A DNA stretch of 64,000 nucleotides from Edaphobacter paludis (GTDB lineage: Bacteria; Acidobacteriota; Terriglobia; Terriglobales; Acidobacteriaceae). A model generated the notes under the pieces. It saw nothing but the letters and a program-made list of their open reading frames with translations, was not told the origin of the DNA and ran no database searches. Made by a program: the position numbers and the translations under genes. The DNA is taken from assembly GCF_039993895.1 (NCBI RefSeq), contig NZ_CP121194.1:1240001-1304000 (forward strand), in the 5' to 3' direction. This document shows positions 25,922 through 48,344 of this stretch, in pieces; within the stretch, counting starts at the first letter, position 1; each line of letters starts with the position of its first letter.

Positions 25922-25966
25922 CCCACCTTAGCGACGATAAAGCTGCCGCGAAGGTGGGGCACCCGG
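25922..25966. repeat. TGGGGCACCCGG hairpin repeat, intergenic copy
   Basis: CCCACCTTAGCG pairs with CGCGAAGGTGGG across a short loop, followed by the conserved tail GGGGCACCCGG. The same element type occurs at 28736, 44527, 44614 and 47927. It lies in the gap between pyrE and the CPBP protease gene. Confidence 0.82.

Positions 25967-26953: not shown

Positions 26954-26957
<4 letters not shown>
26007..26957 (-). CDS. CPBP-family intramembrane metalloprotease
   Basis: The 316-aa membrane protein has about eight helices after an acidic cytosolic N-terminus. It carries the CPBP (Abi) motif as [14 protein letters not shown] (EExxxR) and a second conserved His in [12 protein letters not shown]. 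Family members are prenyl-endopeptidase-like proteases, and the substrate is unknown. The start overlaps the uvrA stop by four bases, so it is co-transcribed with the repair gene, although a functional link is not evident. Confidence 0.88.
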
Positions 26958-30040
<3,083 letters not shown>

Positions 30041-44613: not shown

Positions 44614-44655
44614 AATACCCACTCATGCGATGAGACTGCATGAATGGGGCACCCG
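44614..44655. repeat. TGGGGCACCCGG hairpin repeat, second intergenic copy
   Basis: TACCCACTCATGC and GCATGAATGGGG form a stem around GATGAGACT, followed by CACCCGG. It matches the copy inside uvrA. A partial duplication (CACCCGGCATGAATGGGACT) follows directly. Confidence 0.82.
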
Positions 44656-44701
44656 GCACCCGGCATGAATGGGACTCCGGCGTCTGTTTGGAATCGAACT
44701 G

Positions 44702-47435: not shown

Positions 47436-48344
47436 CTAGCCGCCGAGGTCGAGGAGGTGGACTTCGCTAAGGGGATGGCCGAGAAAGCTGGAGCCGAGGC
47501 GCTGGAATTTTTCTATGGAGTCGGTCGCGTAGAAGCGGCTGGTTGCGGGTGCGCCGGTGGGGTTGGCGGGGAAGTATTCGGCTACGGTGGCGGCGGTGGC
47601 GGCGGCGGAGTCGATGATGGTCATGGGGTGGTTGAGTTCGGCGAGGGTGCGCTTGATAAGCGGCTGGAGTAGCGGGTAGTGGGTGCAGCCGAGGAGAAGG
47701 GTGTTCAGGTTGGGAGCTTCGGCGAAGGCTTCGTTGAGATAGATGCGGAGGACTTCGGCGGTGACGGGGTGGTCGATCCAGCCTTCTTCGACCAGCGGGA
47801 CCAGGAGGGGGCAGGCCTTTTCGATGGCGGCGAGCCCGAGGGCGTTGAGGGCGTGAGCGTAGGCGTGGGACTGGATGGTGGCCGTGGTGGCGAGGACGAG
47901 GACTGAGGGTGAGGTCTGGGGCGGTTCCTCCCCCTTCGCGACGGTAAGACTGTCGGGAAGATGGGGCACCCGGTTGGTTGAGGAGTCGATTGCTTGGTGG
48001 GCGGCTTCGGCTCCGGGTTGGATGACGCCTACGACGGGGATGGGAAGAGCTTGCCTGATGTCTTCGAGGGCGAGGGCGCTGGCGGTGTTGCAGGCGATGC
48101 AGAGGAGATCGGCGCCTTGTTCTTCGAGGAATTTTGCGCTGGAGACGGCGTAGCGGGCGATGGTCTCCTGGGACTTGGAGCCGTAGGGGAGCCGTGCGGT
48201 GTCGCCTAGATAGATATAGCTGGCTCCGGGGATGAGGGGGAGCAGATCTCGGAGGACGGTGAGGCCGCCGAAGCCGGAGTCGAAGACGCCGATGGTGGGG
48301 TTGGGGGGAAGGAGCTTAGCGGGCTTGGCAGTCTTCGCGGTCAT
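47436..48344 (-). CDS. murI: Glutamate racemase, with repeat-derived insertion
   Basis: This enzyme makes D-glutamate for peptidoglycan. The 302-aa protein has FDSGFGGLTVLRDL, the two catalytic cysteines in IACNTASALA (C85) and LLGCTHYPLL, and LPYGSKSQ. Between VIQPGAEAA and VLVLATTATIQS, residues 121-145 form an extra segment with RVPHLPDSLTVAKGEE. That segment is encoded by a dispersed hairpin repeat; ordinary MurI proteins have a short loop here. The start overlaps the GerM-domain gene by four bases, so it is the last gene of a three-gene envelope operon. Confidence 0.94.
   Translation of the reverse strand: MTAKTAKPAKLLPPNPTIGVFDSGFGGLTVLRDLLPLIPGASYIYLGDTARLPYGSKSQETIARYAVSSAKFLEEQGADLLCIACNTASALALEDIRQALPIPVVGVIQPGAEAAHQAIDSSTNRVPHLPDSLTVAKGEEPPQTSPSVLVLATTATIQSHAYAHALNALGLAAIEKACPLLVPLVEEGWIDHPVTAEVLRIYLNEAFAEAPNLNTLLLGCTHYPLLQPLIKRTLAELNHPMTIIDSAAATAATVAEYFPANPTGAPATSRFYATDSIEKFQRLGSSFLGHPLSEVHLLDLGG
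47927..47973. repeat. TGGGGCACCCGG hairpin repeat inside murI coding sequence
   Basis: The plus strand reads CCTCCCCCTTCGCGAC, GGTAAGACT, then GTCGGGAAGATGGGGCACCCGG. The stem is CTTC.CGAC / GTCG.GAAG flanked by CCCC / GGGG. It matches the intergenic copy at 25922 and is translated in frame as part of MurI. Confidence 0.83.

Follow-up and report, generated by a model that had tools for sequence, protein, structure and literature searches.

A short REP-like palindromic element very probably inserted in frame into a permissive loop of glutamate racemase in Edaphobacter paludis

The glutamate racemase gene (murI) of Edaphobacter paludis contains, within an uninterrupted reading frame, a stretch of DNA that resembles a hairpin repeat occurring elsewhere in the genome, which raises the question of how such a segment came to be part of a core protein, and whether it is a tolerated insert or a functional one. 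We analyzed this locus within a window of 64,000 nucleotides (the whole stretch of DNA under study, from a genome of 4.04 Mb in a single contig; Table 1) and compared it with the rest of the genome and with relatives, which, as named via MurI, belong to Granulicella, Edaphobacter, and other Acidobacteriaceae. Very probably, the murI segment is an inserted REP-like element, a short palindrome that is linked to REP-associated tyrosine transposases (RAYTs) and tolerated in a permissive loop of the protein. This reading is built on the intact frame of the gene, the dispersal of the element family, its association with Y1 transposase genes, its absence in the nearest relatives, and the presence of elements in the same loop of three other species.

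Table 1. Coordinates of the hairpin copies and their host genes in the window
Feature	Positions	Strand	Remarks
murI, glutamate racemase	47436..48344	-	302 aa; NCBIfam TIGR00067; frame intact across the insert
Degenerate GGTGCCCCA hairpin copy in murI	47928..47973	-	Head CCGGGTGCCCCA, hairpin, degenerate foot; in-frame translation
uvrA	26954..30040	-	1028 aa; hosts the other in-frame copy of the window
In-frame copy in uvrA	28739..28780	-	15 residues translated
Extragenic copy, murI-type variant	25922..25963	-	Family pattern and similarity to the murI site
Extragenic copy, other stem variant, then a second small hairpin	44618..44653	-	Family pattern

The family consists of a nearly fixed (CC)GGGTGCCCCA head (GGTGCCCCA), followed by a hairpin with a variable stem and a TGGG foot. 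Its strict pattern was found at 23 places in the genome, as compared with 1 for the reversed-pattern control, and 19 of these 23 fold as hairpins; pattern places without a stable hairpin (L124, L135, L140, and L142) were left out. The 66-bp murI site, used as query in a similarity search, retrieved additional copies elsewhere in this genome (best E-value 4.4e-7), and the search yielded five further, degenerate copies, that of murI included. Four copies lie in the window: one in murI, one in uvrA, and two classed as outside genes. Some copies are compound (44618-44700 in the window, L133, L134, L137, and L144), the main hairpin being followed by a second small one, e.g., ATTCGCG...CGCGAACC.

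In murI, positions 47925-47972 encode 16 in-frame residues (RVPHLPDSLTVAKGEE), and the copy is identical to the family consensus at 37 of 45 bases. The initial annotation had described a translated copy of a hairpin family at this place, which is borne out apart from limits that were off by one or two bases. The second coding copy to which it referred is most likely the one in uvrA, and both genes are read from the minus strand with open frames.

The strict pattern was present in all 60 sampled genomes of the genus (that of E. paludis included), with 2 to 270 places in each, and the reversed-pattern controls gave 0 to 5 places; in a few genomes the pattern barely exceeds its control (2 places in G085, and 6 vs. 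2 in G105). As is typical of REPs, the family is a short palindrome with many dispersed, mostly extragenic copies, some of which neighbor the gene of a REP-associated tyrosine transposase. What is missing is the canonical GT[AG]G guide 5′ of the hairpin foot. Of 9 aligned copies, 7 have GGTG as the four bases ahead of CCCCA, and the remaining two have GATG and CGTG. As this guide tetranucleotide is absent, a canonical GTAG REP was rejected as an identification and the family was not filed as such; judged by its RAYT neighbors and its hairpin form, it probably works like one.

At least one family copy was located within about 1.5 kb at 15 of 32 scanned Y1_Tnp loci, where 2.2 would be expected from copy numbers (P = 2.3e-10), and the other 17 loci had no family element. 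The scanned loci comprised the two Y1_Tnp matches of E. paludis together with 30 of the 44 from 14 relatives, one of which was without any match. One of the E. paludis matches (G000:C1:1337213-1337533) has three copies no more than 325 bp away, and in G111 a murI-type copy is placed just upstream of the likely start of a Y1_Tnp gene (L335). The NCBIfam REP_Tyr_transpos model was applied to these two genes, and both proteins score above its cut-off of 80 bits (114 bits in E. paludis and 102 bits in G111). At five loci (L323, L324, L327, L338, and L339), two copies with identical or almost identical stem variants flank the Y1_Tnp gene in inverted orientation. In E. paludis itself, the copies next to the RAYT gene are of another stem variant than that of murI, no murI-type copy was seen at either of the two loci, and the second Y1_Tnp gene is devoid of neighboring family copies. 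This second gene (L155) is flanked by a different type of repeat (CACGGCTTTAGCCGTG and GGGGCTTTAGCCCC) in place of the GGTGCCCCA family.

The AlphaFold2 model of MurI has a mean pLDDT of 92.7, and its fold agrees with that of solved glutamate racemases (Z 35.1 and rmsd 2.0 over 260 residues to 2gzm). The insert had initially been placed between two core strands; in the model, helix 108-123 precedes it and strand 147-152 follows, and its block means (82, 74, and 87) are lower than the 96-98 of its surroundings. Modeling had been proposed as a check on whether the insert is a surface loop, and the insert is predicted to be a loop of lower confidence in an otherwise intact and normal fold. The gap spanned by this loop measures 5 residues in the solved E. 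faecalis enzyme vs. 29 in MurI of E. paludis.

Among the 62 genomes of the genus that were searched, this loop was inspected in 45, and four of them bear a family element in it, namely E. paludis (G000), G111, G077, and G104. The stem (murI-type), the strand, and the frame are common to the first three; the element of G104, on the same strand, is read in another frame (GAPRLASATWD), has a different stem variant, and departs from the head at one base. Identity to the consensus reaches 44 of 45 bases in G111 and 42 of 45 in G077, where the stem is kept through changes on both arms. When murI was compared among sister species, the element turned out to be absent from the closest relatives: G060 (92% identity over 252 columns, loop of 13 residues), G107 (12 residues), and G103 (7 residues). 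In murI, as at one site of mutS treated below (site b), a palindrome is read in an open frame and is missing from homologues.

Across the genus, the length of the loop varies from 7 to 100 residues, and it exceeds 20 residues in 11 of 43 rows, 7 of which are free of the family. The extra residues of G109 stem from a different dispersed repeat, which has 60 matches across the G109 genome (murI included), and those of G090 belong to a third repeat type, with 3 matches in G090 (murI included) and 3 more in G083. Equally long, unrelated loops at this site had been named in advance as an argument against insertion; in form such loops do exist, but two of the seven are themselves other repeats, which indicates a permissive site and leaves the insertion unrefuted. 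This stretch of MurI is thus a permissive site, probably struck several times. The earlier suggestion that the element is tolerated as a protein linker gains support from the position of the loop in an intact fold, from the 7-13 residues found there in the nearest relatives, and from the occurrence of at least two other repeats in it. MurI of G078 (L221; same loop sequence as L097) has 100 residues in this loop, including near-tandem repeats of the peptide NPASGEN, and a short hairpin is also present there whose head differs by one base from that of the family.

The MurI tree was computed from 43 rows with the loop excluded; L204, L213, L214, and L220 were omitted because of a pattern misfit or a masked stretch, and no family element was found in their loops. 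Could the murI element stem from one ancestral insertion, kept in a few species and lost elsewhere, or spread between species via recombination of murI? E. paludis, G111, and G077 agree in loop, strand, and frame, and have a similar pattern of PP residues soon after the element, as would be anticipated in this case. On the tree, however, the bearers stand apart: three changes are needed for these three genomes, forced by the starred branches, and a single clade of murI bearers was ruled out (p-AU 1.9e-70). One gain would need 10 losses for the three, or 13 losses when G104 is added, as compared with four changes for all four bearers. In addition, the left parts of the loop differ among the three murI-type bearers in length (9, 12, and 25 residues) as well as in sequence, and with four of the six frames of the consensus open, agreement in strand and frame is not unlikely. 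A single ancestral insertion is thus very unlikely, and we infer independent origins by repeated insertion into one loop; for G111 and G077 alone, one gain needs only 3 losses, and a shared origin of those two is possible.

The murI copy is one of several that lie in frame within genes. At least 14 of the 137 copies examined in three genomes are in frame inside identified genes, most of the copies being located elsewhere. In E. paludis, 6 of 24 copies are in frame (murI, two sites in mutS, uvrA, trmFO, and penicillin amidase), at least 2 of 51 in G084 (acetolactate synthase and mutS2), and at least 6 of 62 in G092 (mutS2, argS, lysS, ATP-dependent DNA ligase, GHMP kinase, and a Clp-type ATPase, L315, whose hairpin is weak and atypical). 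A copy was counted as in frame only if gene-family or homologue support was available on both of its sides. For initial screening, a codon-usage classifier was used, which overlooked the two mutS copies and wrongly called L137/L008 in frame; that copy precedes a solute-binding protein gene located on the opposite strand. Another 52 open frames without two-sided support were scanned and not counted. Among L007, L008, L265, L273, L279, L281, L283, L285, L292, L361, and L384, those with a gene family have their match only downstream of the element, which is probably located ahead of the gene start, and the rest of the 52 had no family match. Also left uncounted was L005, where the frame reads through the element close to the end of an ORF without family match. 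The figure of 14 of 137 is a lower bound, as only frames of at least 150-250 aa (depending on the step) were scanned. G092 is 8% contaminated and split into 350 contigs (62 hairpins from 84 pattern places). Weak hairpins elsewhere as well as a sample of nine copies from G062 were left out of the tally.

The clearest insertion outside murI is mutS site b, a clean addition of 63 bp (21 codons) immediately ahead of the GPNMGGKS motif, which is absent in 10 of the 10 relatives searched (DNA was aligned for 8). Relatives vary at mutS site a and in trmFO, uvrA, and penicillin amidase: some have the same insert or one of another stem variant, and others have none. Both mutS2 copies (G084 and G092), which differ in their stem variants, are found shortly ahead of the conserved HPLLELR stretch. 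The penicillin amidase elements of E. paludis (L126) and G107 (L228) are identical at 38 of 39 bases, with more diverged flanking codons, which could reflect gene conversion, a fresh insertion, or selection on the hairpin. The inserts in mutS2 (L290) and acetolactate synthase (L277) of G084 also hold further repeat-like stretches (ILSAAKNPRISPEAA and ELSSFREAGGPA), as if such loops collected several repeat families.

The initial annotation had also considered that the element might be selected for open frames and avoid stop codons in all six. The family consensus is open in four of six frames and the murI copy of E. paludis in five. Shuffled letters and shuffled hairpins served as controls. 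On average, 3.68, 4.49, and 4.05 frames per element were open in 19, 51, and 21 copies from three genomes, as opposed to 4.02, 4.48, and 4.31 in the shuffled hairpins. Stop-codon avoidance was rejected, there being no excess over the shuffles beyond chance in any of the three genomes and most copies not being in frame; open frames are the ordinary outcome of short length and composition.

A further possibility is that the encoded peptide is functional, either as a useful linker in MurI, MutS, UvrA, and other proteins, or by altering repair activity. Six of the 14 in-frame copies belong to mutS (twice), uvrA, mutS2 (twice), and DNA ligase, and three more to trmFO, argS, and lysS, a bias that has its like in unrelated species according to the main text of an earlier study (PMC3733652); strand and frame are, moreover, common to three of the four MurI insertions. 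Against such a role, the closest relatives lack the insert, the E. paludis copy is degenerate, the same MurI loop houses other repeats, and the stem variant of G104 is read in a different frame. At the mutS, trmFO, and mutS2 sites, the peptide changes with the stem variant, and stop codons are not avoided by the elements. We therefore regard a selected peptide as very improbable. A chance resemblance of an ordinary variable loop to the repeat would suit a loop that varies so widely in length within the genus, but it is refuted by the near-perfect copies in the same loop of G111 and G077, with the consensus identity of the E. paludis copy and an E-value against other copies far below chance pointing the same way, and has next to no probability.

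Insertion of a REP-like element may have proceeded as follows. RAYT-type HUH transposases, acting in trans, would move the elements as single-stranded hairpins, and the murI hairpin is itself probably mobile. Landing sites would be random or weakly preferred, and copies that break genes would be purged by selection. Those that keep the frame in flexible loops could survive as nearly neutral peptide inserts, MurI presumably being such a case, and would decay afterwards, as the lower consensus identity in E. paludis (37 of 45 bases vs. 44 and 42 of 45 in G111 and G077) suggests.

REPs within genes have been known since 2013, when they were reported from several species, mostly intergenic otherwise, with some copies in frame in conserved genes, and flexible linkers or loops were proposed by the authors (PMC3733652). 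As described in the main text of that study, many of them are located in replication and repair genes (uvrA, recB, DNA polymerases, and DNA ligase) and also in tRNA synthetases, and recB of two Xanthomonas species was hit at about the same site. The family analyzed here resembles them in being made of short palindromes that are mostly extragenic and sometimes coding, with repair and tRNA synthetase genes prominent, but it has GGTG(CCCCA) where their elements have GTAG or CGTC at one end (PMC3733652). In the main text of the same paper, Acidobacteria appear only for their transposases, and the words mutS and murI are absent. TnpA-REP is described as cleaving a single strand, with GT[AG]G as guide (PMC8266576, PMC6006769). 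RAYT-type tyrosine transposases with flanking inverted repeats have been termed TIRYT or 'TIRtron' (PMC3733652, PMC6006769), including a sharply defined acidobacterial group in T. saanensis, K. versatilis, A. capsulatum, and G. mallensis (PMC3733652). Inverted family copies with matching or almost matching stem variants likewise flank several of the Y1_Tnp genes studied here; however, the GGGGWSAS motif given in that paper is not matched by TGGGGCACC. A 2025 survey with RepRanger lists predicted REPs for Granulicella aggregans and defines REPs as seldom overlapping coding regions, the terms 'intragenic' and 'in-frame' being absent from its text (PMC12306157); the passages on these REPs, which come from an acidobacterium of the same family as E. 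paludis, name no sequence family. Literature searches, largely confined to papers outside subscription, returned no report of the present family in murI, nor any of intragenic copies in this lineage.

NCBIfam contains models of Rickettsia palindromic elements (RPE), and no RPE domain is among the NCBIfam matches listed for five insert-bearing genes (for UvrA, the best 25 of 191 families). By their description, RPEs are set apart from the RAYT-linked hairpins of about 45 bp analyzed here by a length of 105-146 bp (PMC2229807). They are found in frame in many conserved protein genes, and in guanylate kinase, one RPE-bearing protein that was tested, activity was kept and substrate affinity changed (PMC2229807). 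Relative to these known systems, our results add another lineage and a non-GTAG family.

A more speculative extension, which we hold to be unlikely though less so than the alternatives above, is that REP-like elements enter repair and tRNA-metabolism genes beyond what loop tolerance would explain (9 of 14 in-frame copies), and that the inserts may tune repair and provide heritable mutator variation. The bias is put forward without statistical claim, the sample being small and the two mutS and two mutS2 cases not independent. MutS2 has other proposed roles besides repair. If this reading is true, the bias of the 2013 report would be repeated independently here, in a different phylum and family of elements, and the recurrence of DNA repair genes among the targets, a question that dates from that year, can be tested in this genus. 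With the pattern present in 60 of 60 genomes, the genus is also a good natural set for testing the neutrality of the inserts. Empty sites in close relatives and repeated strikes on one loop indicate that mobile hairpins regarded as 'extragenic' supply peptide inserts to core proteins.
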